A stretch of DNA of 64,000 nt, taken from assembly GCF_026627925.1 (NCBI RefSeq), contig NZ_JAPNLE010000009.1:4216001-4280000 (forward strand), given 5' to 3'. Below, in pieces: positions 31,471 to 59,905 of the stretch (within the stretch, counting starts at the first letter, position 1; each line of letters starts with the position of its first letter). The notes under the pieces are model-generated. The model was given only the letters and a program-made list of their open reading frames with translations, was not told where the DNA came from and did no database searches. Position numbers and translations under genes: made by a program. Source of the stretch: Cupriavidus sp. D39 (GTDB lineage: Bacteria > Pseudomonadota > Gammaproteobacteria > Burkholderiales > Burkholderiaceae).

Positions 31471-31800
31471 GCTGCAACTGCAACTGCAACTGCAACTGCT
31501 TAAAGTCAAAAGCAGTTTCACCACCCCTGCGGGGCGGCGACCTACTTTTTTGTCTTGCCAAAAAAGTAGGCAAAAAAGGCGCGCCGGATGGGGCGACACC
31601 CCCTCGGGATTCGACGAAAAGAGCGGCCGGGACCCAAACTCGCATCGCCTTAAGGCGATACTCAGACATGGGTCCCTCTTTTCCGCTCTTTTCGCCGAAT
31701 CCCGAGGCGCCCCATACGGCCTTGGCACACCTTCACGGCTCGCTTCGCATCGCGTTTGGGTGTGGCCCGCCCTTCGGGGCGCTTCACACGGCTACCACAA
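31471..31800. repeat. large intergenic palindromic element, copy A
   Basis: About 330 bp between ruvC and purH. In order: four CAACTG hexamers; a hairpin CCTACTTTTTTG / CAAAAAAGTAGG; and a nested palindrome, 31588-31715. The palindrome has outer arms ATGGGGCG/CGCCCCAT, main 24-nt arms 31603-31626 and 31683-31706 (one mismatch), inner GGGACCCA/TGGGTCCC and a core CATCGCC-TTAA-GGCGAT. A tail with CGGCTCGCTTCGCATCGCG and a degenerate GTGTGGCCCGCC hairpin follows. It shares this plan with copies B, C and D. I see no conserved coding frame. Confidence 0.85.
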
Positions 31801-31823
31801 TGGGCTGATTCTTCCGCTGGTTT

Positions 31824-31870
31824 GCTCCCCTCTCCCGCTTGCGGGAGAGGGGCCGGGGAGAGGGCGGGCG
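31824..31870. repeat. third CTCTCCC-type intergenic repeat
   Basis: CCCCTCTCCCGC and GCGGGAGAGGGG form a perfect stem, followed by CCGGGGAGAGGGCGGG. It is the same repeat as the pair at 7845-7995, placed between element copy A and the purH 3' end. Confidence 0.65.
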
Positions 31871-31910
31871 CTTGCGATGCCGCGACGCGTTCAAGTGCCC
31901 GGCCTGGACC

Positions 31911-33485
31911 TCAATGGCGGAAGTGACGAACGCCGGTCAACACCATCGCGATATTGCGCTCGTCTGCTGCGGCGATCACTTCGTCGTCGCGCATCGAGCC
32001 GCCCGGCTGGATGACGCAGGTGGCACCTGCATCCACCACCACGTCCAGGCCGTCGCGGAACGGGAAGAAGGCGTCCGAGGCCACGGCCGAACCTGCCAGC
32101 GTGAGGCCGGCGTTTTGCGCCTTGATGCTGGCGATGCGGGCCGAGTCCACGCGGCTCATCTGGCCGGCGCCGACGCCGAGCGTCATGCCGCCGCCGCAGA
32201 ACACGATGGCGTTCGACTTGACGAACTTGGCCACGCGCCAGGCGAACATCAGGTCGTCCATTTCCTTGGGCGTGGGCTGGCGCTTGGTCACCACGCGCAG
32301 TTCGTCCTGCTGGACGTTCCTGGCGTCGGGGCTTTGCACCAGCAGGCCGCCGCCGACGCGCTTGAAGTCATACGGGTTGAGGCCGTTGCCCAGCGGGATT
32401 TCCAGCAGGCGCACGTTCTGCTTGGCAGCAAACACGGCGCGCGCGCCGGCGCTGAAGGACGGGGCGATCAGCACTTCGACGAACTGCTTGGCCACGGCTT
32501 GCGCGGCGGCTTCGTCCAGCTCGACGTTGAAGGCGATGATGCCGCCGAAGGCCGAGGTCGAGTCGGTCTTGAGGGCTTTTTCGTAGGCTTCCAGCGCATT
32601 GGCGCCGACTGCCACGCCGCACGGGTTGGCGTGCTTGATGATCACGCAGGCCGCGCCGGTGGCGGCTCCGAAGGTCTTGACGCACTCCCATGCCGCATCG
32701 GCGTCGGCGATGTTGTTGTACGACAGTTCCTTGCCTTGCAACTGCGCGTAGTTGGCCAGCGCGCCGTCGGAGGCCTTCAGGTCTCGGTAGAAGGCGGCCG
32801 ACTGGTGCGGGTTCTCGCCGTAGCGCATCTCCTGCACCTTCTCGAAGGCCACGTTCAGCGTCTGCGGGTAGGCGCTGCGGGTCTGGTGCGACTTGTCCGC
32901 GCCGAGGCTGGTCAGGTAGTTGGTGATGGCGCCGTCGTACTGCGCGGTGTGGGCGAACACCTTGGTGGCCAGGCGGAAGTTGGTGTCGTAGCCGACGCTG
33001 TTGGCGTTGGCGCGCATTTCTTCCAGCACCGGCGCGTAGTCGGCCGGGTCCACGATGACGGTGACGTCGCGGTGGTTCTTGGCGGCCGAGCGCAGCATGG
33101 TGGGGCCGCCGATGTCGATGTTCTCGATGGCATCCGGCAGCGAGCAGTCATCCTTGGCCACGGTTTGCTGGAACGGGTACAGGTTCACGACCAGCAGGTC
33201 GATGGTGGGGATGTTGTGCTCGGCCAGCGCTGCCATGTGCTCGGGCAGGTCACGGCGGGCCAGGATGCCGCCGTGCACCTTCGGGTGCAGGGTCTTGACG
33301 CGGCCGTCGAGCATTTCGGGGAAACCGGTGTAGTCGGCCACCTCCGTGACTGGCAGGCCGGCTTCGGCGAGCAGCTTGGCGGTGCCGCCGGTGGAGAGCA
33401 GCGCGATGCCGAGCGCGTTGAGCTCGCGGGCAAATTCGACGATGCCGGTCTTGTCGGATACGGAGAGGAGGGCTTGCTTGATCAT
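31911..33485 (-). CDS. purH: bifunctional AICAR formyltransferase / IMP cyclohydrolase
   Basis: A 524-residue enzyme for the last two steps of IMP synthesis. The N-terminal IMP cyclohydrolase domain begins [26 protein letters not shown] and has STGGTAKLL; the C-terminal transformylase domain includes the catalytic region [13 protein letters not shown] block (here [14 protein letters not shown]) and [13 protein letters not shown]. The start at 33485 is preferred to an in-frame ATG at 33506 because MIKQALLS is the family N-terminus. Last gene of dusB-fis-purH. Confidence 0.97.
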
Positions 33486-33502
33486 GGCTATGGGGAGACG
33501 CT

Positions 33503-33736
33503 TCAAAGTAAACCGTGCTGCTGCAACTTCTTGCGCAGCGTATTGCGATTGATGCCCAGGTAGGCGGCCGCGAGCGACTGGTTGCGCTCGGCGCGCGCCA
33601 TCACTGCTTCAAGCAGCGGCCGTTCCACGGCTTCGAGCACCATGTTGTACATATTCGACGGCTCTTCACCGTCCAGGTCGCGAAAGTAGGCACCCAGGCT
33701 GTCCCGGATGCACTGGTCGATAGCGTTGCGGCTCAT
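33503..33736 (-). CDS. fis: Fis family DNA-binding protein
   Basis: A 77-residue Fis-type protein. The C-terminal helix-turn-helix ([27 protein letters not shown]) is almost canonical. The N-terminal part is shorter than E. coli Fis (98 residues) and lacks the beta-hairpin arms, as usual outside Enterobacteria. It acts as a nucleoid-associated regulator. It overlaps the dusB stop by four bases and precedes purH by 17 bp. Confidence 0.93.
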
Positions 33737-34836
33737 GCGGCAAGCAACTCCCCGTTATTGTTGTTGTTCGACTGGTTGCGTTTCTCGTTGTCGGCGTCGA
33801 TCACATCATCCGTGCCGTTGGCGCCTTCTTCCACATAGACCAGGCGCTCCGACAGCTGCGCCTGCTCATCGAAGAATTCGTTGACCGCGGCGAGCTGTGC
33901 CGTGGTGCTGTCCAGCGTGTTCATGCGGTGGCGGAACAGGTTGGCGCCGGCCAGGCCGCGCGTGTACCAGGCAATGTGCTTGCGCGCGGTGCGCACGCCG
34001 GTGAACTCGCCGTAGAAGTCGTAGTGGTCTTCCAGGTGCGCGTTCATGATGGCGCGGATCTCGGCCACTTCCGGCGACGGCAGCAGCTCGCCGGTGGCGA
34101 GGTAGTGCTCGATCTCGCGGAACAGCCAGGGCCGGCCCTGCGCCGCGCGGCCGATCATGATGGCGTCGGCGCCGGTCACGGCCAGCACATGCTTGGCTTT
34201 TTGCGGCGTGGTGACGTCGCCATTGGCGACCACGGGGATGGAGAGCGCTGCCTTGACCGCGGCAATGGTCTCGTACTCGGCTTCGCCCTTGTACAGGTCG
34301 GCGCGCGTGCGCCCGTGCACGGTGAGCATGCTGATGCCGGCGTCTTCCACCATGCGCGCGATGCGAAGCGCATTGCGGTTCTGGCGGTCCCAGCCGGTGC
34401 GGATCTTGAGCGTGACGGGCACGCGCGGATCGACCTCGGCCACGGCGGCGACCACCGCCTGGACGATGCGCACCACCAGCGGCTCGTTTTGCAGCAGCGC
34501 CGAGCCGGCGGCCACATTGCACACCTTCTTGGCCGGGCAGCCCATGTTGATGTCGATGATCTGCGCGCCGCGCTCGACGTTATGGCGCGCGGCTTCCGCC
34601 ATCATGGCCGGCTCGGCGCCGGCGATCTGCACCGCGATGGGCTCGACTTCGCCGGTGTGGTTGGCGCGCCGCATGGTTTTTTCGCTCTTCCACAACTGCG
34701 CGTTGGAGGCCACCATTTCGGACACCGCGTAGCCCGCCCCCAGCCGTTTGCACAGCTGGCGGAATGGCCGGTCCGTCACACCGGCCATAGGCGCGACGAA
34801 CAGGTTGTTGCGGAGTTGGTGCGGTCCGATTTGCAC
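33733..34836 (-). CDS. dusB: tRNA-dihydrouridine synthase B
   Basis: A 367-residue FMN enzyme reducing specific uridines in the tRNA D-loop. Motifs are NNLFVAPMAGVTDRPFR, the QIAGAEP block, DINMGCPAKKVCN with the catalytic Cys in its PAKKV neighbourhood, VTLKIRTGWD, VHGRTRADLYKG and DAIMIGRAAQGRPWLF. The C-terminus ends in an unusual Asn run (NQSNNNNNGE). The GTG at 34836 gives the family start IGPHQL; an ATG at 34905 would add 23 residues of low credibility. Translationally coupled to fis, as in many Proteobacteria. Confidence 0.92.
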   Translation of the reverse strand: MQIGPHQLRNNLFVAPMAGVTDRPFRQLCKRLGAGYAVSEMVASNAQLWKSEKTMRRANHTGEVEPIAVQIAGAEPAMMAEAARHNVERGAQIIDINMGCPAKKVCNVAAGSALLQNEPLVVRIVQAVVAAVAEVDPRVPVTLKIRTGWDRQNRNALRIARMVEDAGISMLTVHGRTRADLYKGEAEYETIAAVKAALSIPVVANGDVTTPQKAKHVLAVTGADAIMIGRAAQGRPWLFREIEHYLATGELLPSPEVAEIRAIMNAHLEDHYDFYGEFTGVRTARKHIAWYTRGLAGANLFRHRMNTLDSTTAQLAAVNEFFDEQAQLSERLVYVEEGANGTDDVIDADNEKRNQSNNNNNGELLAA

Positions 34837-34980
34837 GATAGCGACTGTAGCGGCTGACGAGGGGCCGCAAGGCGGCCCGCAACTAGACAAAAATGAAAAT
34901 GGCATGCCCTGCCGAAACAGCGCTCGGCGTCATTCAGTGGGCATGTGTGAGGGCAGGATTTTACCGCCAAACGGCCCCGG

Positions 34981-34999
34981 TTGCTCAAGATTTGAGCAA
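34981..34999. promoter_or_regulatory. perfect palindrome upstream of dusB-fis-purH
   Basis: TTGCTCAA (34981-34988), spacer GAT, TTGAGCAA (34992-34999): an 8-bp perfect inverted repeat about 145 bp before the dusB GTG start. It looks like a dimer operator. The spacing does not match FNR, LexA or PurR consensus sites as I know them. Confidence 0.5.
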
Positions 35000-35035
35000 A
35001 TATTGCACCGGGCCGCATTGCAAACAATGTTGTCG

Positions 35036-35054
35036 GCGCCGCCTTTAGCGGCGC
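35036..35054 (-). terminator. GC-rich hairpin at the ubiH 3' end
   Basis: GCGCCGC (35036-35042), loop CTTTA, GCGGCGC (35048-35054), overlapping the ubiH stop codon. No T-tract follows in the minus direction, so it may be an RNA-stabilising hairpin or weak terminator. Confidence 0.4.
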
Positions 35055-36286
35055 ATGCCATACATCATCTGGCGCGCCAGCGTGTCCTTGAGCGGTCCCA
35101 GGCAAGCGAGCGCCGCCAAGGACGCCCCACGCGCGTGGGCAGCGAGCGGGTAGGAAACGCCAAACACGCGGGGGAGCAGGTCGGTCACGCCGATGGTGAC
35201 GGCCCGATCCAGCTTTTGTTGCGCCGCAAACGCCTGCAAGGCTTGCGGGCTGCAGTCGGCGCGCAGCGCGAGCGCCAGGGCAAAGGCGTCGCGCAGCCCG
35301 AGGTTGAGGCCCTGGCCGGCTACCGGATGTAGCGTCTGCGCCGCATTGCCGACCGCCACCACGCGGCCCTGCACGGTGACGGGCGCCGCGTTCAGCCCGA
35401 GCGGGAAGGCATGGCGCTTGCCAATGCCGGTGAAGCGGCCCATGCGCGGGCCGAATGCTTGTTCCAGTTCAGTGAGGAACTCGCCTTCGGGCAGCGCGAG
35501 CCGGCGCGCCGCTTGTTCTGGCGGGCAGCACCAGACCAGGGCGTAGCCGGGCGTGCCGTGCTCTTCATGCGGCAGCAGCGCCAGTGGCCCTTCCTCGGTA
35601 AAGCGCTCCCAGGCCCAGCCAGGCTGCGGGCGCGAGCAGGCCACGTGGGCCACGATCGCGGTCTGCCCGTAGTCGCGCCGGTATTTCTGCGCCTGCACGC
35701 CACGCTGCGCGCGGGTGGACTGCTGGTGGAACAGGCCGCCTTCGGCCTGCACCGCCAGGCGCGCGCCAAGGGCGGCGGGCTGCCGGTCATGCCCATGGCC
35801 GGAGAGGCGCACCAGGCCGGCCGTATCGGGACCGGATTGCTCCAGGTGATCGATGCGTGTCTCATAGACCCGTGCCAGGCGCTCGCCAGCGGCGGCGGGG
35901 CTGGCCTGGATGGCCTGGGCCAGCGCGCGCTCAAGTGCCTCGCACAGCTCGCCGTAGCGCACCACATAGCCCAGCGCGGGCACGTCGTAGTCGTCGCTGT
36001 GCAGCCTGACGTGGCCGAACCGCCCGCGTTGCGAGACATGGATATGCTCGATCGGCGTGACGGCGCGGGGCCACGCGCCGATCTGCTCGAGCAGCTGGCG
36101 GCTGCCGTAGGACAGCGCGATGGCGCGCGGATCGCGGGACGCGCGCGCAGGCGTGGCGGCGTCGATCAAGGTCAGGCGCCACGGGCTCCTGCGCAGCAAC
36201 AGGCAGGCCAGCGCGAGGCCTACCGGCCCCGCGCCGACGATGGCGATATCCGTGTCCGCAGAGACTTCAGTGCTTGCCGGGCTCAT
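35045..36286 (-). CDS. ubiH: UbiH/UbiF/COQ6 family FAD-dependent hydroxylase
   Basis: A 413-residue flavoprotein monooxygenase of ubiquinone biosynthesis. It shows the Rossmann dinucleotide motif IAIVGAGPVGLALA, the DPRAIALSYGSRQLL block and the second FAD motif VVAVGNAAQTLHPVAGQGLNLGLRDAFAL, which is diagnostic of the UbiH group. Which ring position it hydroxylates cannot be decided by sequence alone, but placement after pepP mirrors pepP-ubiH of E. coli. It overlaps the upstream unknown gene by 20 bp. Confidence 0.9.
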   Translation of the reverse strand: MSPASTEVSADTDIAIVGAGPVGLALACLLLRRSPWRLTLIDAATPARASRDPRAIALSYGSRQLLEQIGAWPRAVTPIEHIHVSQRGRFGHVRLHSDDYDVPALGYVVRYGELCEALERALAQAIQASPAAAGERLARVYETRIDHLEQSGPDTAGLVRLSGHGHDRQPAALGARLAVQAEGGLFHQQSTRAQRGVQAQKYRRDYGQTAIVAHVACSRPQPGWAWERFTEEGPLALLPHEEHGTPGYALVWCCPPEQAARRLALPEGEFLTELEQAFGPRMGRFTGIGKRHAFPLGLNAAPVTVQGRVVAVGNAAQTLHPVAGQGLNLGLRDAFALALALRADCSPQALQAFAAQQKLDRAVTIGVTDLLPRVFGVSYPLAAHARGASLAALACLGPLKDTLARQMMYGMRR

Positions 36287-36794
36287 GCGCGCTGCCTGGC
36301 TGGGCGAACGGGTTGCTGTCGTTGCTCGCGTTGCCCATGGTGTCCGTCGTGTCCATGGCGTCCGACTCCGCCGGCTGCGCGCCGCGCCTCCAGCAATTGG
36401 CGTCGGTCCGGTGCTTGCCCGCCGCCGCGTCGCTCAGGGCGTTGTCCAGCTTCTGCTGGTTGAAGCCGGGAAATGCCTGCAGGCGTTCCAAGAGCGCCGC
36501 GTGATTGGCCGCATCGAGCGGCACCACGCAGCCCCGGGGCGTGCCGTTGGACTTGGGGTCTCCCACCAGGATCAGCCATGCTTTGCCGGCCCACGGCTCG
36601 CGGTTCGAGACCCGCACCACCACGCGCTCGATCACATCCCATTCGAGTTCTTCGCGCTGGCCATCGGGGCGATGCACGACGAGGCGGTCGTCGTAGAGGT
36701 TGACCACGAACGGTTGCCCGGGATCGACGGAGCGCGCGCGGCTGGCCTGTGCGCGATTGCCCGTCGGAAGTATCTTGCGTAGCCAGCTGATCAT
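36267..36794 (-). CDS. unknown protein between pepP and ubiH
   Basis: 175 residues, no family recognised. After a short basic amphipathic start (MISWLRKILPTGNRAQASRARS), residues about 28-125 look like one folded domain with alternating strands (FVVNLYDDRLVVHRPDGQ, VVVRVSNREPWAGKAWLILVG) and a helical end (ALLERLQAFPGFNQQKLDNAL), reminiscent of a PH-like fold. The last 45 residues are polar and probably disordered (MDTTDTMGNASNDSN). No signal peptide. It overlaps pepP by 4 bp and ubiH by 20 bp, so all three are one operon. Confidence 0.75.
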   Translation of the reverse strand: MISWLRKILPTGNRAQASRARSVDPGQPFVVNLYDDRLVVHRPDGQREELEWDVIERVVVRVSNREPWAGKAWLILVGDPKSNGTPRGCVVPLDAANHAALLERLQAFPGFNQQKLDNALSDAAAGKHRTDANCWRRGAQPAESDAMDTTDTMGNASNDSNPFAQPGSAHEPGKH

Positions 36795-38185
36795 CGTGCA
36801 CCTCCCGCGTCGCGCATCAGCGCCTCGATTTCGTCGGCCTTGACCGGGACGCCACGCGTCATCAGTTCGCAGCCGCCATCGGTGACAACCGCATCGTCCT
36901 CGATGCGGATGCCGATATGCCAGAAGCGCTCCGGCACGTCCGGTGCCGGGCGCACGTAGATGCCGGGCTCCACCGTCAGCACCATGCCGGGCTCGAGTGG
37001 GCGCCAGGCGCGCTCGCCCTCGGCCGGCGCGGCACCGGGCACGCGGTATTCGCCCACATCATGCACGTCCATGCCTAGCCAGTGGCCGGTGCGGTGCATG
37101 TAGAACTGGCGGTAGCTGCCGCTGGCGAGCACGTCGTCCAGGCTGCCGCAGCGGTTCGCGTCGAGCAGGCCGGTATCGAGCATGCCCTGCGCCAGCACGC
37201 GGGTCGCCGCGTCGTGCGGCACGTTGTAGGGCACGCCGGGGCGGGTCTCGGCGATGGCGGCTTCCTGCGCGGCCACCACCAGGTCGTACAACTCGCGCTG
37301 GGCCGGCGAGAAGCGGCCGGAGACGGGGAAGGTGCGGGTGATGTCGGAGGCATAGCCGTCGAGCTCGCAGCCGGCGTCGATCAGGCACAGGTCGCCGTCG
37401 CGCAGCTCGGCGGGGCCGGCCCGGTAATGCAGCACGCAGGCATTGGGGCCGGTGGCGACGATCGAGTTGTAGGCGACGCTCTGCGCGCCGTGGCGGCGGA
37501 ATTCGTAGAGCAGCTCGGCTTCCAGGTGGTACTCGCGCAGCCCTTCGCGCGACGCGCGCATGGCGCGCACATGGGCCTGGGCCGAGATCTCGGCGGCGCG
37601 GCGCATGGTGACAATCTCGCCGGCGTCCTTGAACAAGCGCATCTCGTCGAGGATGGTGCGGATGTCGATCGCCGTCGATGGCGCGGTCACGCCGGCACGG
37701 CCTTGCATGCGCACCGTTTCGAGCCAGCGCCGCACCTGCATGTCGGTGCGGGTGTTGGCGGCCAGCGGGTAGGCCACCACGGCGTGGTTGGCCAGCAGCG
37801 ACGGCAGCAGGGCGTCGATCTCCTCGACCGAATGCGCTTCGTCGAAGCCGAAGGCGGCCTGCGCGCCTTCCGGGCCATAGCGGAAGCCATCCCAGATCTC
37901 GCGTTCTTCGTGCTTGGGGCGGCAGAACAGGATGCTGCGCTCGGCGCCGGACGCCTGCGCCACCAGGACCAGCACTGCCTCCGGCTCGGTGAAGCCGGTC
38001 AGGTAGTAGAAATAGCTGTCGTGGCGATAGGGATAGTCGCTATCGCGGTTGCGCATGGCTTCCGGCGCGGTGGGCAGGATCGCCACGCCGCCGCCGCCGG
38101 CGCGCAATTGCTGGAGCACGCGGGCGCGCCGGTCGCGACAGGCGAGAAGGAGGGCGGAGTCGGGTGCGGACATGTGTTGGGCCAC
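36791..38185 (-). CDS. pepP: Xaa-Pro aminopeptidase P
   Basis: A 464-residue M24B metallopeptidase removing N-terminal residues before proline. It has the N-terminal creatinase-like domain (RDSDYPYRHDSYFYYLTGFTEPEAVL) and the catalytic pita-bread domain with metal ligands in LCLIDAGCELDGYASDITRTFPVSG, HRTGHWLGMDVHDVGEY, GMVLTVEPGIYV and GIRIEDDAVVT. The start is at 38185, or the fifth codon ATG at 38173. First gene of pepP-unknown-ubiH. Confidence 0.95.
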   Translation of the reverse strand: MAQHMSAPDSALLLACRDRRARVLQQLRAGGGGVAILPTAPEAMRNRDSDYPYRHDSYFYYLTGFTEPEAVLVLVAQASGAERSILFCRPKHEEREIWDGFRYGPEGAQAAFGFDEAHSVEEIDALLPSLLANHAVVAYPLAANTRTDMQVRRWLETVRMQGRAGVTAPSTAIDIRTILDEMRLFKDAGEIVTMRRAAEISAQAHVRAMRASREGLREYHLEAELLYEFRRHGAQSVAYNSIVATGPNACVLHYRAGPAELRDGDLCLIDAGCELDGYASDITRTFPVSGRFSPAQRELYDLVVAAQEAAIAETRPGVPYNVPHDAATRVLAQGMLDTGLLDANRCGSLDDVLASGSYRQFYMHRTGHWLGMDVHDVGEYRVPGAAPAEGERAWRPLEPGMVLTVEPGIYVRPAPDVPERFWHIGIRIEDDAVVTDGGCELMTRGVPVKADEIEALMRDAGGAR

Positions 38186-38254
38186 GTGGATGGGGAATAA
38201 GGCGATTCTAACGCCGCCGCATTGCCGGTGCGGGCCTGGACGCGCTGGACCCGC

Positions 38255-38995
38255 TCAAGGCAGGGGTGCGCAAGCGGTGCCGGACCGGGCTAGCACCGCG
38301 GCATCGAGTGCCGCCAGCTGGGCCGGCGTGCCGATGTTCTCCCAGGCGCCGTCGAAGCGCTCGCCGCTGGCTAGCCCGGCTGCCACCGCGGCGCGGTAGT
38401 AAGGCGTCATGGCAACTTTCTGGCCGGGCTCGATGGCAGTAAACAGCCGGGTGTCGTACAGGCCAATATTGCCGAAGGTCAGGCTCGGCGCCGTTGCCGT
38501 GGGCGCGGGCAGCAGCAGGCCATCGGCCCCGAGCGCAAAATCGCCGCGCGGATGGAATGGCGGATTGGGCACCATCACCAGGTGCATGCGCGGCTCGGGC
38601 GCACCGGCCATGGCGCGCGCCCGGGGCAGCAGGGCGCGGAAGTCGTAGTCGGTGAAGATGTCGCCGGATACCGCCAGGAATATCTCTCCGCGCTCGGGCG
38701 CGGCCGACAGCAGCGGCAGCGCCTGGGCAATGCCGCCGGCGGTTTCCAGCGCGCTGGGCTCGGCCGAGTACGCCAGGCACACGCCGAAGCGGTTGCCATC
38801 ACCGAGCGCCTGTTCGATCTGCCCGCCAAGCCAGGCGTGGTTGATCACGATGTCCTTGAAGCCGGCACGCGCCAGCGCCTCGATCTTCCAGACGATCAGT
38901 GGTTTTCCGCCCACCTGCAGCAGCGGCTTGGGGCAAGCATCGGTCAGCGGGCGCATGCGCTCGCCGCGCCCGGCTGCAAAAATCATGGCTTTCAA
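38255..38995 (-). CDS. murU: N-acetylmuramate-1-phosphate uridylyltransferase
   Basis: A 246-residue nucleotidyltransferase. The Rossmann signature is MIFAAGRGERMRPLTDACPKPLLQV, followed by VSGDIFTDYDF (metal site) and FGNIGLYDTRLF. It best matches MurU, which makes UDP-MurNAc from MurNAc-1-phosphate in the recycling route that bypasses de novo synthesis. The TTG at 38995 yields M-KAMIFAAG, the family N-terminus; the ATG at 38986 is the alternative. AmgK, which makes its substrate, is encoded 1.1 kb upstream on the same strand with azlCD between. Confidence 0.88.
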   Translation of the reverse strand: MKAMIFAAGRGERMRPLTDACPKPLLQVGGKPLIVWKIEALARAGFKDIVINHAWLGGQIEQALGDGNRFGVCLAYSAEPSALETAGGIAQALPLLSAAPERGEIFLAVSGDIFTDYDFRALLPRARAMAGAPEPRMHLVMVPNPPFHPRGDFALGADGLLLPAPTATAPSLTFGNIGLYDTRLFTAIEPGQKVAMTPYYRAAVAAGLASGERFDGAWENIGTPAQLAALDAAVLARSGTACAPLP

Positions 38996-39012
38996 TGCAG
39001 GGTCTCCGGCGC

Positions 39013-39351
39013 TTATTTCAGCGCGTGGTTCAGCAGGTATGTCAGCGCGATCAGGGTGCCCATGCCGCCGGCAATGGTCCAGCCGATGCTGCGCGTCCTG
39101 GCGGCGATGACGATGGCCACCAGGCCGGCAATCAGGCGCGCGTTGCCAGGGCCGATGTCGAGCTGGCCATCGCGCATCAGCAGGTCGGGGGCGATCAACG
39201 CCGAGAGCATGGCGGCCGGCACGAACTGCAGCGCGGTGCGGAACCACGACGGCAGCCGCACCCGGCCTTCCACGGCAATGAAGGACAGGCGGATCAGGAA
39301 GGTGGCGAGGCCGGCGCCGATGAACACCAGCAGCAGGGTCAACTGGCTCAT
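39013..39351 (-). CDS. azlD: AzlD family branched-chain amino acid transport protein
   Basis: A 112-residue membrane protein with about four hydrophobic segments. RLSFIAVEGRVRLPSWFRTALQFVPAAMLSALIAPDLL is the AzlD signature. AzlD is the small partner of AzlC in branched-chain amino-acid (analogue) export. Its start overlaps the azlC stop by four bases. Confidence 0.92.
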   Translation of the reverse strand: MSQLTLLLVFIGAGLATFLIRLSFIAVEGRVRLPSWFRTALQFVPAAMLSALIAPDLLMRDGQLDIGPGNARLIAGLVAIVIAARTRSIGWTIAGGMGTLIALTYLLNHALK

Positions 39352-40109: not shown

Positions 40110-40130
40110 CCGGCATGGCTTGCGCTGGCA

Positions 40131-41165: not shown

Positions 41166-41320
41166 GCCGGAAAGGGAGAATAGGATGCCCCGTATAATAC
41201 CCGACCAGACCCGGGCCCCGGGGCGGCTCCCAGGCGGGCCTCCCCAGCCCGACAGCCTGCTTCGGCGGTGGCTGGCGGTTGCTGGGCCGCCGCCGCCGCT
41301 CTGACTCATGACCCGCTCGC
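41166..41320. promoter_or_regulatory. divergent promoter region, amgK / lptD
   Basis: A 155-bp spacer with a perfect TATAAT at 41193-41198 in + orientation; a -35 element is not obvious. The rest is very GC-rich. The box probably serves lptD-surA-pdxA-rsmA; the amgK promoter is not resolved. Confidence 0.4.
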
Positions 41321-43729: not shown

Positions 43730-43735
43730 CGGACC

Positions 43736-46296: not shown

Positions 46297-46316
46297 CGCC
46301 CGAGCGAGACCAAACT

Positions 46317-48323: not shown

Positions 48324-48344
48324 GTTTTTTGAGGGGCGTGGGGT

Positions 48345-48685
48345 TGCAACTGCTTAACTGTAACTGCAACTGCTTAACGTCAAAGTCAAAGGCAGTTTCA
48401 CCTCCCCTGCGGGAGGCGACCTACTTTCTTGTCTCGCCAAGAAAGTAGGCAAAGAAGGCGACCCGGATGGGGCGAAAGACTCCTCGTCGGCAGGCAAAAA
48501 GAGCGGCCGGGGGCCAAACTCACATCGCCTTAAGGCGATGCTCAGACATGGCCCCCTCTTTTCCGCTCTTTTGCCTGCCGACGAGGCGCCCCATAACGGG
48601 AGATGAAAACCTTGACGGCTCGCTTCGCATCGTGGGCGGGTGATTGCCGCCTGGGGGCGGAACTCACGGCTACACCGAATCAAAT
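48345..48685. repeat. large intergenic palindromic element, copy B
   Basis: The same plan as copy A, in + orientation, after trpS: CAACTG-type hexamers, hairpin CCTACTTTCTTG / CAAGAAAGTAGG, outer arms ATGGGGCG (48467-48474) / CGCCCCAT (48587-48594), main arms 48483-48506 / 48563-48585 and the CATCGCC-TTAA-GGCGATG core. The main arms carry a different block (GTCGGCAGGC with GCCTGCCGAC), and the inner stem is GGGGGCCA/TGGCCCCC instead of GGGACCCA/TGGGTCCC, so both sides have changed together. Confidence 0.85.
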
Positions 48686-49055
48686 TTGACCCTCTGTGGT
48701 AAGCCGTGTTTCCCGCCCGAGGGGCGGGAAACACCCACGCGCGATGCGAAGCGAGCCGTGGAGGTGTGCCAAGGCCGTATGGGGCGCCTCGGGATTTCAC
48801 GAAAAGAGCGGAAAAGAGGGACCCATGTCTGAGTATCGCCTTAAGGCGATGCGAGTTTGGGTCCCGGCCGCTCTTTTCGTGAAATCCCGAGGGGTGTCGC
48901 CCCATCCGGCGCGCCTTTTTGCCTACTTTTTGGCAAGACAAAAAAGTAGGTCGCCTCCCCGAAGGGGAGGTGAAACTGCAGTTGCTTTTGACGTTAAGCC
49001 GTTGAAGTTGCAGCTGATTTTTCAGTTGCAGTTGCAGTTGCAGTTGCGGCCACAC
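48686..49055. repeat. large intergenic palindromic element, copy C (inverted)
   Basis: The same element in opposite orientation to B, making a head-to-head pair between the convergent trpS and EamA genes. Tail hairpin GTGTTTCCCGCCC/GGGCGGGAAACAC is perfect. Outer arms 48779-48786 / 48898-48905; main arms 48788-48811 / 48868-48891 are fully complementary, with the variant GGATTTCACG/CGTGAAATCC. Then the CTACTTTTTGG hairpin side, and CAGTTG hexamers at the far end. Confidence 0.85.
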
Positions 49056-49078
49056 CCCCTCCCTTCACTCCCGCCGAT

Positions 49079-49972: not shown

Positions 49973-49973
49973 C

Positions 49974-50381: not shown

Positions 50382-50497
50382 TTTGGGAGAGGCCTGATTT
50401 TGTTTTGGGATAGGCCGGATATTCTAAACGGGATGGAAGCAATGGGTTTGCCTTGGCACAGGCGTGCCATTTTCCCGTTTTAAATCAAGGGCCCAGC

Positions 50498-51382: not shown

Positions 51383-52131
51383 GCGGGCGTTTTGCTCCGG
51401 TAGCTCTCGGCGTCGATTCTACGCATATCTTGTTCGATCCACGCCTCAACCTCCTGGTTGACCTGATCCGCCGTCTTGTTCGCCGACGAAATCGGCGCGC
51501 CGACGGAGACCGTGATCAGGCCCGGGTACTTGAGAAACGAGTTGCGCGGCCACAGGCGGCCGGAGTTGACGGCCATCGGGATCACCCATGCGCCGGTCTC
51601 TACCGCAAGGCGGGCGCCGCCGCTCTTGTAGCGCGTCTTCTCCAGGCCGGAGCGCGTGCGCGTGCCTTCCGGGAACATGATGATCCAGGCGCCTTCGGCG
51701 AGCCGCTCGCGGCCCTGGCGCACGGCCGAGGCGAAGGCGCGGGTGCCTTCCTTGCGGTTGATGTGCACCATCTTGAGCATGCCCAGCGCCCAGCCGAAGA
51801 AGGGCACCATCAACAGTTCGCGCTTGAACACGAAGCACATCGGTTTGGGCATGGTGGCCAGGTAGGCCACGGTTTCCCACGCCGACTGGTGCTTGGACAG
51901 CACCACCACCGGCTTGTCGAGCATGGCATCGAAATGCTCGCGGCCTTCATAGCGGTAGCGGATGCCGCAGATCAGCGCGGCCGCGCCGGTCACCAGCCGC
52001 GGCCAGCCACGCACGAAGCGGTAGCGGCGCTCGGCGTTCATGAACGGAAAGACGATGAAGCACGCACAGGCATAGGGCGGCGTCAGTACCAGGAGGAACA
52101 ACGCGAACAGAAAGGAGCGGAGAAAAATCAT
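51379..52131 (-). CDS. plsC: 1-acyl-sn-glycerol-3-phosphate acyltransferase
   Basis: A 250-residue membrane enzyme acylating lysophosphatidate to phosphatidate. An N-terminal hydrophobic segment (SFLFALFLLVLTPPYACACF) is followed by the acyltransferase motifs KHQSAWE and FPEGTRTR. The usual catalytic H-x(4)-D appears here as H-x(4)-E, which I believe is common in betaproteobacterial PlsC. The start at 52131 gives a membrane-anchor N-terminus. It is cotranscribed with gmhB, 17 bp upstream. Confidence 0.92.
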   Translation of the reverse strand: MIFLRSFLFALFLLVLTPPYACACFIVFPFMNAERRYRFVRGWPRLVTGAAALICGIRYRYEGREHFDAMLDKPVVVLSKHQSAWETVAYLATMPKPMCFVFKRELLMVPFFGWALGMLKMVHINRKEGTRAFASAVRQGRERLAEGAWIIMFPEGTRTRSGLEKTRYKSGGARLAVETGAWVIPMAVNSGRLWPRNSFLKYPGLITVSVGAPISSANKTADQVNQEVEAWIEQDMRRIDAESYRSKTPA

Positions 52132-52148
52132 CGGTGCGGGAGTTGGGT

Positions 52149-52727
52149 TCAGGAGCCGGCCTGGCGCGGGGCGCCATCGCCGGTGAGCAGCCAGCGTGCA
52201 AAGGCGCGCAGGTCGTCGTGGATCAGCGTGCCGGGCGGAAGGCCGCCCTTTTTCTCGGTCTTGGGGCCTTTGCCGGTCAGCACCAGGTGCGGGGCGCAGC
52301 CCACCGCCAGCCCGGCTTCGAGGTCGCGCAGGGAGTCGCCTACCAGCGGCACGCCCTTGAGCTCGACGCCGAAGCGCTCCGCCAGTTGCTCGAGCATGCC
52401 GGGCTTGGGCTTGCGGCAATCGCAGCCGTCCGCCGCCGTATGCGGGCAGAAGAAGACCGCGTCAACGCGCCCGCCGAGATTGGCCAGCGCCTTGTGCATC
52501 TTCTCGTGCATGGCGTTGAGCGCGCTCATCTCGAACAGGCCGCGGCCGATGCCGGACTGGTTGCTGACGATCACCACGCGATAGCCAGCCTGGTTGAGCG
52601 CGGCGATCGCTTCCAGGCTGCCATCGATGGGGATCCATTCATCCGGCGTCTTGATGAACTGGTCGCTGTCGAGGTTGACGACCCCGTCGCGATCGAGCAC
52701 GACAAGCTTGGGCGGTGTCTGCGGCAT
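52149..52727 (-). CDS. gmhB: D-glycero-beta-D-manno-heptose 1,7-bisphosphate 7-phosphatase
   Basis: A 192-residue HAD phosphatase in ADP-heptose synthesis for the LPS core. The nucleophile motif is VLDRDGVVN; the zinc-site loop FCPHTAADGCDCRKPKPG is characteristic of GmhB; and motif IV is PLVGDSLRDLEAG. It lies between glyS and plsC on the same strand. Confidence 0.95.
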   Translation of the reverse strand: MPQTPPKLVVLDRDGVVNLDSDQFIKTPDEWIPIDGSLEAIAALNQAGYRVVIVSNQSGIGRGLFEMSALNAMHEKMHKALANLGGRVDAVFFCPHTAADGCDCRKPKPGMLEQLAERFGVELKGVPLVGDSLRDLEAGLAVGCAPHLVLTGKGPKTEKKGGLPPGTLIHDDLRAFARWLLTGDGAPRQAGS

Positions 52728-52755
52728 GATGGCTTCCCGGTGGGTGCTTGGCCGC

Positions 52756-54888
52756 TTACGCGGCCAGCTTGGAGATGTCGGCCACGCGATTGGCCAGCAC
52801 GTGCAGCGAGGCCAGCAACGCGAGCCGGTTGGCGCGCAGCTGCGGATCTTCGGCCATCACCATGACATCGTTGAAGAACTGGTCGACCGCCTCGCGCAGC
52901 TGTGCCAGGTCGCGCAGCGCGGTGGCGAAGTCGCCGTTGGCGAAGGCGGCATCCACTTGCGGACGCACGCTTTCCACCGCCCTGTGCAGCGCGCTTTCGG
53001 CGGCTTCCTGCAGCAGGGCCGGCTGCACCGTGCCGATCGGGTCCGTGTTCTTGCGCAGGATGTTGGTGATGCGCTTGTTGGCCGCGGCCAGCGCCTCGGC
53101 CTGGGGCAGGGCGGCAAAGGTGCGCACGGCTTCCAGGCGGGCCAGGATGTCGTCCAGGCGCTGCGGGCGCAGGCTCACCACGGCTTCCACTTCATGGGTG
53201 GTGTAGCCCTTGTCCTTCAGGTAGCCGCGCAGGCGGTCGTACAGGAAATCGGCAATCGCGGCTTGCGTGGGCTTGACCGCGGCAATGCCGGTGAAGGCCT
53301 GCTGGGTGAGTTCCAAGAGCGCGTCGATCGACAGCGGCAGCGGGGTCTCGACCAGCATGCGCAGGATGCCGAGCGCGTGGCGGCGCAGCGCAAACGGGTC
53401 CTTCTCGCCGGTAGGCGACAGGCCGATGCCCCAGATGCCGACCAGCGTTTCCAGTTTGTCGGCCAGCGCCACGGCCAGGCTCACCGGGCCATCCGGCAGG
53501 GCGTCGCCGGCAAAGCGCGGGCGGTAGTGCTCGGAGCACGCCAGCGCCACGCTTTCCGCCTCATCGTCGTGACGCGCGTAGTACGTGCCCATGGTGCCTT
53601 GCAGTTCCGGGAACTCGCCCACCATGTCGGTCAGCAGGTCGGCCTTGGCGAGCTCGGCGCCACGCATGGCAGCCGCCTTTTCCACGGCGATGCCGGCCGC
53701 GCCGAGCGCGTCGGCGATGTGGCCGGCGATCTGCTGCAGGCGCTGCACGCGGTCCAGCTGCGTGCCGATCTTGTTGTGATAGACCACGTTGGCCAGTTGC
53801 GGCACGCGCGAGGCGAGGGTCTTCTTGCGATCCTGGTCGAAGAAGAACTTGGCATCGGCCAGGCGCGGGCGCACCACGCGCTCGTTGCCGCTGATGATGG
53901 ACTCCGGCGTATCGGTGGCCAGGTTGGAGACCACCAGGAAGCGGTTGCGCAGGTGGCCGGCGGCATCGGTCAGCGCGAAGTATTTCTGGTTGGTCTGCAT
54001 GGTCAGGATCAGGCATTCCTGCGGCACTTCGAGGAACACTTCCTCGAAGTGGCACGGATAGACCACCGGCCATTCCACCAGCGAGTTGACTTCGTCGAGC
54101 AGGGCATCGGGCATCACGACCTGGTCGGCGCCCGCCTGCTCCAGCAGCGCGGTACGGATGCGTTCGCGGCGATCCGCGTAGCTGGCCAGCACGCGGCCTT
54201 GTGATTCCAGCACGGCGGCGTATTCGCCTGCGTGTGCGATCTCGATCTCGCCGCTCGACAGGAAGCGGTGGCCGCGCGTGGTCCGGCCCGCCTGCAGCCC
54301 CAGCACGCTGACCGGCACCACCTCGGTGCCAAGCAGTGCAATCAAACCGTGCGCGGGGCGCACGAAATGCACCGTGCTGCCGTCCGGGCGCTGGTAGCTC
54401 ATCACCTTGGGGATGGGCAGCCTGGCGATGGTGTCGTCCAGTGCTGCCTGCAGCCCGGCGCCCAGTTCGGCGCCGCGCGCGGTGTAGCAGTAGAAGAAGG
54501 CATCGGCCTTGCCGTCGGAGGCGCGCTCCAGGGTTTGCCAGTCGATCGCCTCGACGCCCACCGATTTAGCCAGTGCGGCCAGCTTCTTGGCCAGCGGGGC
54601 GGTGGGCTGGCCGCTGGCGTCCAGCGCCACCGTCAGGGGCAGCACTTTTTCGCGCTGCTCGCGGTCGGGCGCGTTGCGGCGCACCTTGGTGACCAGCGCG
54701 GCCAGCCGGCGCGGCGTGGCGAACGCGGTCACTGCCGCGCCGTCACCTACCAGGCCACGCTCGGAGAGGCCAGCGAAGAGGCCCTGCGCGAAGGCGTCGC
54801 CCAGGCGTGCCAGCGCCTTGGGCGGCAGCTCTTCAGTGAACAGTTCGATCAGCAGCGTATCGTTCGAATCGGTGAGGAGTTGCGACAT
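52756..54888 (-). CDS. glyS: glycyl-tRNA synthetase beta subunit
   Basis: A 710-residue beta subunit of the heterotetrameric glycyl-tRNA synthetase, needed for tRNA recognition. It begins [23 protein letters not shown] as in all Gly[36 protein letters not shown] and [27 protein letters not shown] are conserved blocks. Downstream of glyQ with one unknown gene between. Confidence 0.97.
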
Positions 54889-54924
54889 GAATCGTTTCCA
54901 ACAAGTTGTGGCACGCGCTGCGAT

Positions 54925-55586
54925 TTAGCAGCGCGGTGCAATAGTAGGTTCTACGCCGGACAACAGCCACAGGCCGTTTTGCTGGCGGAATTGCAGCGTG
55001 GTTGCTACGCACTGCGTGTCTGCGTTGGTGCCATTGGTGCCATTGGTGCCGTTGCTTGCGCTGCTGCCACGGCCGCCTGGGGCGGGACGGGGCGCGAAGA
55101 AGCGGGCATCGAGGCGGCGCAGCCGCTTGTCGTAGCGGATCTCGTCGATACGGCCGCTCACCCAGAAATCGATCTTGGGCGGCAGCTGCGCGGCCGAGTA
55201 ATACGTCTTGATCTGCCTGCGCACCCGCCCGTTGACGGTCTCGGTCTCGACCCACGAGAGTGGGTAGCGGATCGCGCTTTCATAGGCGCGCAGCGGCACG
55301 CGGTGCCAGCCCAGGTCCTTGGAGCCCGACAGATCGCACGAGAACGTGCGCACCAGCTGGGTCCATTGGTCCAGTGAGTTGTTCGGGCCGAAAGCACCAT
55401 GCCAGTGCCGGTCGATCGCCTGCTGCAGGGCCTGCGGATTGGCCTCGCACACATTGGACAGGTCGGCCGGCAGGTATAGCACCTGCGGGCTCGGCATGGA
55501 CGCGGTGGCCTGGGCGGCGCCATGCGCCCCCAAGGCCAGCAGCGCCAGGGCAGCGCCTCGGCATAGCGCGCTGCGCGCTGAGCGGG

Positions 55587-55590
<4 letters not shown>
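54925..55590 (-). CDS. unknown exported protein between glyQ and glyS
   Basis: 221 residues with a clear signal peptide ([22 protein letters not shown]). The mature protein has four cysteines ([20 protein letters not shown] and the C-terminal residue), suggesting two disulfides in the periplasm. No family recognised. Near the C-terminus a 9-bp repeat encodes NGTNGTNGTN. The start at 55590 overlaps the glyQ stop by four bases, so translation is coupled to glyQ. Its position inside the glyQ-glyS pair looks conserved in relatives, from memory. Confidence 0.8.
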
Positions 55591-56555
<965 letters not shown>

Positions 56556-56898
56556 AGGCGAAGACTAGTAAGGGCCTGCACGCAGGCCAGCAAGCAAGGG
56601 CGGACGGCGTGGCGGCAAAGTTGCCGCAGCGCCTCACGAAGATCGTGCCAAACCCCGAATTCTATCGGTTTTTTGCCGCCGCCAGCCATCGGCACGGCCC
56701 TTGCATGGGTCAGGGCGTCCAATCCCGCCCGCGGGGCTGGCATGTGGTGTCGGCGTTTTGCAACGAATCGGGTAAACACCGAAGGGAGCTAAAGGCTTGC
56801 CGGATACTGGTCGTTAGCGTTTTTGTATACAGTATTAGGCAGAGCTGTGCATAACAGCCGCAACCGTTTGAATCAATCCAGTTACGGGGACACCGGTC
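56556..56898. other. glyQ upstream intergenic region
   Basis: 343 bp without an evident larger gene. It holds a short hairpin, GCGGCAA/TTGCCGC near 56614, and the AT-rich string TTTTTGTATACAGTATTAGG near 56819-56838, which could carry a promoter for the small frame at 56899. No T-box or other known riboswitch is recognised upstream of glyQ. Confidence 0.3.
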
Positions 56899-56991
56899 AT
56901 GTCGCTACTTTCTCGCAAGCCCTATCTCGTTGCCATCGTCGTGATGATTGCCGTCGCCTTGCTATCGGTAGCAGCGGGGGCGTCTGCCTGA
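56899..56991 (+). CDS. possible 30-residue single-pass membrane peptide
   Basis: The frame encodes 30 residues: a short polar basic head (MSLLSRKPY) and a continuous hydrophobic stretch (LVAIVVMIAVALLSVAAGASA), the layout of a small membrane protein. GGGGA lies about 10 nt upstream as a weak ribosome-binding site, and the AT-rich TATACA/CAGTATT region 60-70 bp upstream could be a promoter. It is convergent to lnt and ends 18 bp from it. No homologue recognised, and a chance frame is possible. Confidence 0.35.
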   Translation: MSLLSRKPYLVAIVVMIAVALLSVAAGASA

Positions 56992-57009
56992 CGACTGGCC
57001 CGGCCGCCG

Positions 57010-58607
57010 TCAGCCCTGCTGGCGGCGGCGCCAGGCCGCCAGTGCCAGCACCAGCAGGCATGCCGCCAGCGCCGGCATATTGCCCCACCGCACGTAGGGG
57101 TGAATCCCTGCGTGCCCTGCACATTGGCGGTGAGCGTGCCGACGGTGAAGGTCGGCAGTTGTCCCGCCACCACGCCGTCTGGCGTCACCACGGCCGTCAT
57201 GCCGGTATTGGTCGAGCGCAGCATCGGCCTGCGCGTTTCCAGCGCGCGCATGCGCGAGATCTGCAGGTGCTGGTCCAGCGCGATGGTGTCGCCGAACCAC
57301 GCCAGGTTGGTCACGTTGGCCAGGATATTGGCCGGCACCTTCTGGCTGCGCAGGGTCTCGGCGATTTCCTCGCCGAACAGATCCTCGTAGCAGATGTTGG
57401 GCGCCACCATGATGCCGCGCACCGGCAGCGGCGTCTGGTCCAGCCCGCCGCGGCGGAAATCCCCTAGCGGCATCTTCATCATGTCCACGAACCAGTGGAA
57501 GCCGAAGGGAATGAACTCGCCGAATGGCACCAGGTGGTGCTTGTTGTAGCGGTACAGCCGTTCGGTCAACGGGCCCAGGCCAAAGACACTGTTGGTGAAA
57601 TCGACCGGCGAGTCCGCGCCGGCTGCACCGAACAGCACGGTGGTGCCGCTTGCCACGGTGAAGTCGCGCACCGCGATGGCGATGTCCACCGGCAGGTCCT
57701 GCAGGATCACCGGGAATGCGGTCTCGGGCGTCACCACCAGATCGGCAGGGGCGGCCGTGATCAGGTCGCGGTACAGCTCGAGCGAGCGCTGCACGCCGAC
57801 CGGCTCGAACTTGATGTCCTGCGCCACGTTGCCTTGCAGCAGCCGCACCGAAATGGGCTTGCCGGCAGGCGTGGTCCAGGCGATCGGCACCAGCGCGGCG
57901 CCGGCCAGCGGCAGCGCCACGGCCGCCGCCAGGGCGAGCATGCCGGCACGCATGCCGCGCGGGTTGGCGCCGCCACGGCCAAAGCCGCGTACGGCGGCCA
58001 CCAGCAACGCAGCCACCGTCGCGGCCAGCGCGCCGATGCCATAGACGCCCACCAGCGGCGCAAAGCCGGCCAGCGGGCCATCGGTATGGGCGTAGCCGCT
58101 CGACAGCCAGGGAAAGCCGGTGAAGACCACGCCGCGCAGCCATTCCGACAGCCCCCAGGCCGCGCCAAAGGCGAGCGGCGCGAGCAGCGTCAGTGAGGTT
58201 GTCCGCGTACGGCGGGCAGTCAGCCAGTGCCAGGTGGCGGCGGCCAGCGCCGGATAGAGGGAGAGGAAGGCGGCGAACAGCAGCACGGCAAGCAATGCCA
58301 TCCACGCTGGCATCTCGCCATAGACGTGCATGCTGATATAGAGCCACCAGATGCCGGAGAGGAACCAGCCGAGGCCGAAGGCGTAGCCGGTAGCGGCCGC
58401 GCCACGGGTGCGCGGCGCATCAGCGACCAGTGCCACCAGCCCCGCCAGCGACAGCAGTTGCAGCCACCACCATGTGTGCGGCGCGTAGGCCTGGGTATGG
58501 GCCACGCCCAGCACGGCAGCCAGAACCAAGCGGGGCAGGCTTACGCCGCGCGCGTCGTCGCGTCCGGCGCTGGTGGCGCCGGACCATGCCTGGAGCACGC
58601 GCCTCAT
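57010..58607 (-). CDS. lnt: apolipoprotein N-acyltransferase (frameshifted near the 3' end)
   Basis: An inner-membrane enzyme adding the third acyl chain to lipoproteins; about 532 residues if repaired. N-terminal membrane segments include YAFGLGWFLSGIWWLYISMH. The nitrilase domain has the catalytic Glu in VVTPETAFPV, Lys in the YNKHHLVPFGEFIPFG block and Cys in APNICYEDLFGEE. At about 57097-57100 one G (C on the coding strand) is missing: GFTP then TCGG should be GFTPYVRWGNMPALAACLLVLALAAW, ending at 57010. Unrepaired, the frame would run to 56922. Its start overlaps the corC stop. Confidence 0.9.
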
Positions 58608-59476
58608 GCGCCGTCCATGTCGGGTGCGGTGAGCGCAGGCTCGCGGCGCACCAGCAGCAGGTGTGCCTGCCGGGCGTCGGCGCGCAGGACTTCGAAGCGC
58701 ATCGGCGGCAGCATCACCACTTCGCCGCGATGCGGCACATGGCCCAGGTGGTTGCTCAGCAAGCCGCCCACGGTATCGACGTCGTGATCCGAAAATTGCG
58801 TGCCGAAGGTTTCGTTGAACTGCTCGATCTCGGTCAGTCCATGCACGCGCCAGCTGCCATCGGGCAGCTGCACGATGTTGTCATGGTCTTCGTCGAGATC
58901 GAACTCGTCCTCGATGTCGCCCACGATCTGCTCCAGCACGTCCTCGATGGTGACCAGGCCGGCGATGCCGCCGTACTCGTCCACCACCATGGCGATGTGG
59001 TTGCGGTTGATGCGGAAGTCGCGCAACAGGATATTGAGGCGCTTGGACTCGGGAATGAACACCGCCGGGCGCAACGTCTCGCGCAGGTCGAACTCCTCGT
59101 CGGTGTAATACCGCAGGAGGTCCTTGGCGAGCAGGATGCCGATGATGTTGTCACGGCTGCCCTCATAGACCGGAAAGCGCGAGTGCGCTGTCTGCCGCAT
59201 GAAGGGAATGAAGCTCTCCGGCGCGTCGGCGATATTGACGGTGTCCATCTGGCCACGGGGGACCATGATGTCGCGCGCGGTGAGTTCGGATACCTGGAAC
59301 ACGCCTTCGATCATGGAAAGCGAGTCGGCGTCGATCAGGTTGCGCGCATGCGCATCCTGGAGCACCTCAAGCAATTCGGCACGGGAGTCGGGCTCGGGAG
59401 AGATGAAATCCGAGAGCCGTTCGAGCAGGGATCGGGGACGGTCGGCTGACTTCGAACTGGGATAAGGGTCGTTCAT
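58604..59476 (-). CDS. corC: HlyC/CorC family transporter-associated protein
   Basis: A 290-residue soluble protein with two CBS domains (TARDIMVPRGQMDTVNIADAPESF and RPAVFIPESKRLNILLRDFRINRNHIAMVVDEYGGIAGLVTIEDVLEQIVG) followed by the CorC_HlyC transporter-associated domain (GLTEIEQFNETFG). Linked to cobalt/magnesium efflux in other bacteria; the exact role is uncertain. It lies in the conserved phoH-ybeY-corC-lnt order, but an intergenic element separates it from ybeY. Confidence 0.92.
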   Translation of the reverse strand: MNDPYPSSKSADRPRSLLERLSDFISPEPDSRAELLEVLQDAHARNLIDADSLSMIEGVFQVSELTARDIMVPRGQMDTVNIADAPESFIPFMRQTAHSRFPVYEGSRDNIIGILLAKDLLRYYTDEEFDLRETLRPAVFIPESKRLNILLRDFRINRNHIAMVVDEYGGIAGLVTIEDVLEQIVGDIEDEFDLDEDHDNIVQLPDGSWRVHGLTEIEQFNETFGTQFSDHDVDTVGGLLSNHLGHVPHRGEVVMLPPMRFEVLRADARQAHLLLVRREPALTAPDMDGA

Positions 59477-59574
59477 GGCGCGACGAGCGCGGGGTGGATA
59501 TCGGTTGAAGGATACACTAAAAGGGTTTGGGGGCTGTGACTTGGGGGTGACGGGGGAGGTTTGGCGGTGTTTGA

Positions 59575-59905
59575 AATTGCAACTGCAACTTCAACGGCTT
59601 AACGTCAAGGGCAACTGCAACTGCAGTTTCACCACCCCTGCGGGGCGGCGACCTACTTTTTTGTCTTGCCAAAAAAGTAGGCAAAAAGGCGCGCCGGATG
59701 GGGCGACTACCCTCGGGATTCGACGAAAAGAGCGGCCGGGACCCAAACTCGCATCGCCTTAAGGCAATACTCAGACATGGGTCCCTCTTTTCCGCTCTTT
59801 TCGTCGAATCCCGAGGCGCCCCATACGGCCTAGGTGAACCTTGACGGCTCGCTTCGCATCGCGCTTGGGTGATTCCCGCCTGACGGGCGGGAATCACGGC
59901 TACAC
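59575..59905. repeat. large intergenic palindromic element, copy D
   Basis: About 330 bp between corC and ybeY, the same plan as copy A. Hexamers GCAACT; hairpin CCTACTTTTTTG / CAAAAAAGTAGG; outer arms 59698-59705 / 59817-59824; main arms 59712-59735 / 59792-59815, perfectly complementary (GGATTCGACG with CGTCGAATCC); inner GGGACCCA/TGGGTCCC; tail hairpin GTGATTCCCGCC/GGGCGGGAATCAC. The remaining stretch 59477-59574 holds nothing I recognise. Confidence 0.85.

Follow-up and report, generated by a model that had tools for sequence, protein, structure and literature searches.

The closest described relatives of the family reported here are the repetitive extragenic palindromes (REP) and bacterial interspersed mosaic elements (BIME) that go with REP-associated tyrosine transposases (RAYT). 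The description by Nunvar (2010) presents them as intergenic palindromes of alternating orientation, many of them with a GTAG foot, and with mosaics and inverted pairs, and gives the REP itself as a short palindrome of about 20-40 nt that often reaches more than 100 copies (PMC2817692). In the current analysis we have examined a stretch of 64,000 nucleotides from Cupriavidus sp. D39 (contig NZ_JAPNLE010000009.1, positions 4,216,001 to 4,280,000; hereafter the window), which carries four copies, A to D, of an intergenic element rich in hairpins. Judged from the sequences, the element probably represents a new REP/BIME-like interspersed repeat family whose minus-strand fold is kept, as a structured 3'-untranslated region (3'-UTR) or intercistronic RNA; we give this reading a probability of about 0.55.

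Three other kinds of system are pertinent. REPINs are REP doublets in which two inverted copies form the unit. Miniature inverted-repeat transposable elements (MITEs) are short, non-coding, dispersed and non-autonomous, with terminal inverted repeats and a target-site duplication. IS200/IS605 and REP/RAYT systems prefer the lagging-strand template. The REP/BIME of E. coli have been reported as a barrier to 3' exonucleases or as an attenuator.

Covariation of the stems

The unit is non-coding, about 330 nt long, and comprises a tail hairpin, a nested palindrome of 135 nt, two further hairpins (H2 and H1) and a variable hexamer tract. Its stems covary. For 25 copies RNAalifold predicts 77 pairs, of which 25 are changed on both sides, and 99.0% of the 1913 stem cells pair; when the 3' partner is slid by 1-3 columns pairing falls to 39-46%, a comparison biased towards the unslid structure, as this was derived from the same 25 copies. 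With the 3' letters shuffled among the copies 91.2% of the cells pair. Cells changed on both sides number 141, against 43.8 in the shuffles and 3-13 in the slid controls.

A profile search of DNA from eight genomes yielded 175 unique copies, and the 116 that bear the palindrome were used for a test of significance (a home-made G-test with average product correction and 40 tree-simulated nulls, not R-scape). In this large alignment significant covariation is present (E<=0.05) at 5 of 38,226 column pairs, all five of them in the variable stem; at one stem pair, for example, TA occurs 47 times, AT 41, CG 19 and GC 8. As RNA, element D folds with -169.6 kcal/mol on the plus strand and -193.5 on the minus strand (z of -12.5 and -15.3), and none of 100 shuffles folds as well, so that chance does not account for the palindrome.

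All four elements lie where the sequence-only reading had placed them and have one shared architecture. The nested palindrome, put at 128 nt in that reading, measures 135-138 nt across A-D.

31471..31800, plus strand, element A: hexamer tract 31474-31497, H1 31519-31537, H2 31541-31570, nested palindrome 31584-31719, tail hairpin 31758-31792
31819..31871, plus strand, CTCTCCC-hairpin module after the tail of element A
48345..48685, plus strand, element B, of a second subfamily: hexamers 48346-48371, H1 48399-48416, H2 48420-48449, palindrome 48462-48599, tail hairpin 48638-48670
48686..49055, minus strand, element C: tail hairpin 48703-48736, palindrome 48775-48909, H2 at about 48921-48950 (assigned by eye, the pattern search having missed this hairpin), H1 48954-48972, hexamers 48980-49047
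59575..59905, plus strand, element D: hexamers 59579-59622, H1 59630-59648, H2 59652-59681, palindrome 59694-59828, tail hairpin 59867-59900

On the strand opposite to that of A, B and D, C represents the same element, and together with B it forms a tail-to-tail inverted pair. The palindrome arms quoted earlier for D (GGATTCGACG/CGTCGAATCC), C (GGATTTCACG/CGTGAAATCC) and B (GTCGGCAGGC/GCCTGCCGAC) are exact and complementary; those of A (GGATTCGACG and CGCCGAATCC) have a single A.C mismatch. The inner stem has indeed changed on both sides, being GGGACCCA/TGGGTCCC in A, C and D and GGGGGCCA/TGGCCCCC in B.

The probable folding strand

With the structure first taken from the minus-strand fold, and with the tip pairs near the loop left out as well as those base-of-helix pairs in which almost every copy has A.C, single-arm stem changes that give G-U amount to 51.5 on the minus strand against 18.0 on the plus strand (mean parsimony events). 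Control transitions in unpaired columns are balanced, at 42.6:38.9 (Fisher p 0.007 against the stems) and, for a wider set of unpaired columns, at 63.0:60.4. In the variable stem the minus:plus ratio is 30:3 by events and 31:3 by mismatch cells in 50 haplotypes; among these 50 arm haplotypes G-U is present on the minus strand in 24 and on the plus strand in 3. H1 gives 2.7:1.0 events and 5:1 cells. As G-T pairs form in DNA also, the wobble bias names the strand and not the molecule.

The one-sided wobble in the variable stem favours one folding strand over a two-stranded cruciform. A DNA cruciform, kept as the binding site of an architectural protein with both strands folding together, would agree with the near-perfect arms, with the 700-nt inverted repeat that the tail-to-tail pairs form, and with a pair of the related genome G032 (975 kb) that has collapsed into a single H1 hairpin. 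Since both strands would fold, wobble should then favour neither, and the 9:1 tandem orientation described below would have no clear reason; we consider the cruciform very improbable. Of the proposal in the sequence-only reading that a folded form, RNA or cruciform DNA, is maintained, the maintained fold has come through the larger test on 116 copies and the cruciform loses ground.

Concerted evolution and conversion between copies

The copies homogenise within a genome. For A-type copies at five sites the distance between orthologs is 0.076 (13 pairs), between unrelated sites across genomes 0.075 and between paralogs of the same genome 0.060; the corresponding values are 0.064 (9 pairs), 0.065 and 0.035 for the C-type, and 0.068 (7 pairs), 0.070 and 0.049 for the B-type. 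As orthologs are as distant as unrelated sites, inter-copy conversion, and not site history, sets the sequence of the element and spreads the arm variants, and many arm differences are therefore few events copied around. At sites shared by the home genome (G000) and its relatives G036 and G032 the arms are mostly genome-specific; at 4568 and 4619 kb, for instance, the left arm is GGATTCGACG, GGATTTCACG or GGGCTTCGGCG.

Arm-to-arm conversion had been named in the sequence-only reading as the chief alternative. Conversion is borne out between copies, and for the arm-to-arm form no inverted loop has been seen in 116 palindromes. In its fullest form this alternative assigns the element no function: template switching would copy arm onto arm within the palindrome, and conversion between dispersed copies would spread the result. 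The homogenisation agrees with it, as do the both-side pair changes in one branch, about 73 in number, of which 67 are Watson-Crick pairs both before the change and after it (mean over 20 reconstructions), and the adjacent pairs that, by eye, change as a block. Template switching is a known source of compensatory patterns in RNA stems according to a published account, which also treats loop inversions by this route as rare anyway (PMC8794818), so that the lack of an inverted loop, the strongest sign of template switching, is to be read with that rarity in mind. It predicts no preference of wobble for either strand, yet the variable stem has one, and it leaves placement and orientation unexplained. 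We regard it as possible, though doubtful.

Several observations weigh against a kept minus-strand fold. The variable stem accounts for most of the wobble bias, and a single pair (column 99) supplies 11.8 of the 51.5 minus-strand events. H2 has no minus-strand bias (5:5 events, 3:7 cells), the outer stem is unbiased (1:1 by both counts), the inner stem gives 1.0:3.6 events and 0:2 cells, and the tail hairpin 10.7:4.4 by events but 7:8 by cells. Non-wobble stem mismatches (77.4 events) are commoner than wobbles. Folding energy has been dropped as evidence on the strand: in 58 of 60 copies sampled from 95 the RNA of the minus strand has the better energy, but 100 shuffles of one copy give the same difference (-11.2 against -13.0); folded as DNA, D has almost the same energy on either strand (-104.6 and -106.4). 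Inter-copy conversion makes the events non-independent and so weakens all event counts, those of wobble and covariation included. Finally, palindrome-less copies are abundant in some relatives (37 tail motifs and 9 palindrome cores in G061, 10 and 0 in G035), and the palindrome is therefore dispensable for persistence.

Genomic placement

The copies are intergenic and lie at the 3' ends of genes, with the minus strand mostly sense; inverted pairs and mosaics, expected of a REP/BIME family, are present. In the window, element A lies between purH and ruvC, and D between ybeY and a corC-like gene (match below cut-off), all four on the minus strand, so that the minus strand of each element is the sense strand of its neighbours. 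The B/C pair lies between the convergent trpS (plus strand) and a DMT-type transporter gene (minus strand), both named from NCBIfam matches below cut-off.

Of the 32 single copies of the home genome 27 are callable with a simple codon-usage gene caller, and relative to the element 16 stand between convergent genes, 9 in '--', 1 in '++' and 1 in '-+' context; other caller thresholds change the '--':'++' ratio from 9:1 to 10:2. The background, taken from 377 gaps of 60-2500 bp in 0.82 Mb of G036, is 68 convergent, 80 '--', 131 '++' and 98 divergent (18, 21, 35 and 26%). Singles of six genomes pooled, at sites partly shared and hence not independent, give 26, 24, 7 and 3. The genes of the background and of the pooled set were called in the same simple way. 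The tail-side gene is transcribed into the element in 25 of the 27 callable singles.

Sampled GC skew locates the replication origin at about 3.0 to 3.5 Mb on the contig. If 3.2 Mb is taken as the boundary, the plus strand points with the replication fork in 27/32 singles (p 0.0001). Nine of the 10 tandem sites are '--', against 38% expected if the elements are fork-aligned (p 0.001) and against 50% for free orientation (p 0.011, a one-sided value calculated by hand). When the two data sets are combined by hand, 21/27 tail-side genes are head-on to the fork.

These observations suggest how a kept minus-strand fold might act. The minus strand would be transcribed as a 3'-UTR or intercistronic RNA, selection may keep its fold as a barrier to 3' exonucleases or as an attenuator, and inter-copy gene conversion would spread variants of the whole palindrome. 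A bolder form of this proposal, which we put forward tentatively and hold less likely than the general one, is that of a structured RNA which is dispersed and homogenises itself: behind dozens of mostly head-on genes it would serve as a common 3'-end module, whether attenuator or stabiliser, and conversion would rewrite its variable stem genome-wide with pairing kept.

The function of an RNA is usually regarded as proven once covariation is found. Since each genome has dozens of copies, and since there are several close relatives with orthologous sites, the family allows covariation, inter-copy conversion and replication-related effects to be separated. Should the RNA reading be true, a dispersed RNA structure would be evolving in concert in bacteria, and head-on genes would have a candidate 3'-end module linked to them; should it be false, the family warns that in repeats conversion may imitate the covariation of an RNA.

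Copy number, organisation and turnover

What had been described as a four-copy family comprises 47 full or partial aligned copies at 39 places of the home genome, a lower bound, 40 of 57 candidate windows having been scored and five further short fragments left out. The exact palindrome-core pattern occurs 39 times, always on the 5.3-Mb contig. The 47 copies fall into two subfamilies, A/C/D-like and B-like. Tail-to-tail pairs of a B-like and a C-like copy occur at seven sites (1984, 3583, 3600, 3642, 3785, 4264 and 5306 kb) and are outnumbered by single copies; they are 87-93% alike to the window's pair (4264 kb) over 469-724 bp aligned. The linker is similar at six sites and different in the window's pair. 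Beside two pairs lies a 1.39-kb stretch, 99.9% identical and in inverted orientation (G000:C9 3783936-3785325 and 5304469-5305857). A pair of G032 at 1669 kb joins flanks that lie far apart in the home genome; pairs therefore sit at rearrangement points.

Single copies have no terminal inverted repeats, the hexamer tract being at one end and a hairpin at the other. After the tail, 22 of the 30 singles with a readable tail have the CTCTCCC-hairpin module, none of which has been seen between paired copies. This module (CTCTCCC...GGGAGAGGG; window 7849-7872, 7969-7992 and 31828-31851) is a separate dispersed repeat that accompanies most single copies and occurs also without an element nearby.

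Some copies are without the palindrome, with the junction in a short GGCG/AGGCG direct repeat in the three inspected. These are unlikely to be the ancestral form, since the right half of the outer arm is still present in them. In three places (G036 717 kb; G032 360 and 667 kb) an element is split by an insertion of 1.2-1.3 kb. The flank of a truncated element at G000:C9 about 4178700-4179200 resembles the end of a group II intron and a maturase, the intron seemingly lying inside the palindrome.

Comparison of insertion sites among relatives has revealed both shared and absent singles. The compared stretch holds nine A/C/D-like singles; G036 shares six of them (4075, 4247, 4275, 4383, 4568 and 4619 kb) and has no counterpart to the other three (3952, 4158 and 4179 kb). 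Seven of eight B-like singles are without a G036 counterpart and the eighth (3911 kb) lies opposite a pair. The B-like copy at 4473 kb is present in G000 and G032 and not in G036, so spacer losses or exchanges also occur. At one place G036 has a B copy tail-to-tail with a palindrome-less D where the home genome has D alone.

Distribution

The family occurs in one group of Cupriavidus species. Matches to B at E<=0.001 occur in 15 of 60 genomes of the genus, several of them weak. The exact tail motif is found 41 times in G000, 43 in G036, 48 in G032, 37 in G061, 13 in G034 and 10 in G035 (151 in the five relatives together), and the exact palindrome-core motif 39, 41, 39, 9, 4 and 0 times, respectively; both are absent from G044, G033, G017 and G058. 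G044 has a diverged form of the element, partly in tandem arrays with a spacing of about 440 bases in two arrays (C1 1209649-1210895 and 1731049-1732294) and of 310-470 in a third (C2 1552592-1554095).

Among named records the core pattern occurs in 4 stretches of Cupriavidus basilensis OR16 and 9 of 'Burkholderiaceae bacterium 16'. The fourteenth and last, in an Acidobacteria metagenome-assembled genome, lies in coding sequence without a profile match, apparently by chance. Among 300 genomes of the order 6 have an H2-like hairpin pattern, the home genome being one of them and at least one match probably being due to chance; in G017 an H2-like hairpin lies inside a different, larger repeat. 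Plasmids gave no match to D and phages none to B, and the core pattern was not found in viral contigs.

The searches yielded no name for the family. A scan of the window against Rfam gives two matches, RNase P and a Betaproteobacteria toxic small RNA (RF02278; 14782-14845, plus strand, 68.6 bits), neither overlapping an element; at a relaxed threshold the D region has merely three chance-level matches and no family. Titles and abstracts of openly licensed papers, among the matches listed, hold no name for it.

Mobilisation

A GTAG foot is found on the minus strand in 29 of 45 tails (27 by script, two by eye) and is absent from the C-type copies in pairs. It is one of the points that agree with a fold of single-stranded DNA, in which the element would be transposable, a nuclease of the HUH/Y1 type recognising it on the lagging-strand template in the manner of IS200/IS605 and REP/RAYT elements. 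Most singles are fork-aligned, so that the plus strand is the lagging-strand template, and four singles of the home genome (3872, 4204, 4421 and 4512 kb) are absent from the same sites in G036 and G032. At these four sites, inspected by eye, the whole spacer is replaced, with no clean ends or junction and no target duplication; moreover the wobbling strand is the minus strand, not the plus strand of the lagging template. The only PF01797 match of the home genome is probably IS200-like, has an internal stop and has no element beside it. We therefore judge this explanation unlikely.

Of 60 Cupriavidus genomes 58 have a RAYT-like Y1 gene class (29-37 bits, by a visual count), whether or not they carry the element, and 59 have some PF01797 match; no RAYT-like gene was found in the home genome (assembly 97.8% complete). 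Around 14 Y1 loci (12 separate places in six genomes, about 1.5 kb on each side) there is no element, and comparison of the elements with these loci gave no real match, only scraps of 25-34 bits. RAYT as mobiliser is thus unsupported, neither a RAYT gene flanked by the element nor one in the home genome having been found. A SINE-like (short interspersed nuclear element) retroelement with an (AGTTGC)n tail has been set aside, nothing having been found for it, with no reverse-transcriptase search made.

Comparison with known systems

The element resembles MITEs in being short, non-coding, dispersed and non-autonomous, and differs in that its ends are unlike each other and in the lack of target duplication at the four inspected sites. 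As in REPINs, two inverted copies recur as a unit, in the seven B/C-like pairs; unlike REPINs, each half is a large nested palindrome, singles are commoner than pairs and no RAYT was found. With RNA hairpins maintained by template switching it shares block-wise compensatory changes, and it departs from them in the absence of loop inversion and in the one-sided wobble of the variable stem. From REP/BIME it is set apart by a unit that has four hairpins in about 330 nt, by copies numbering in the tens, and in that no repeat-flanked RAYT gene was found. A GTAG foot is present in 29 of the 45 tails. It shares with REP/BIME the intergenic position, the alternating orientation, and the mosaics and inverted pairs.

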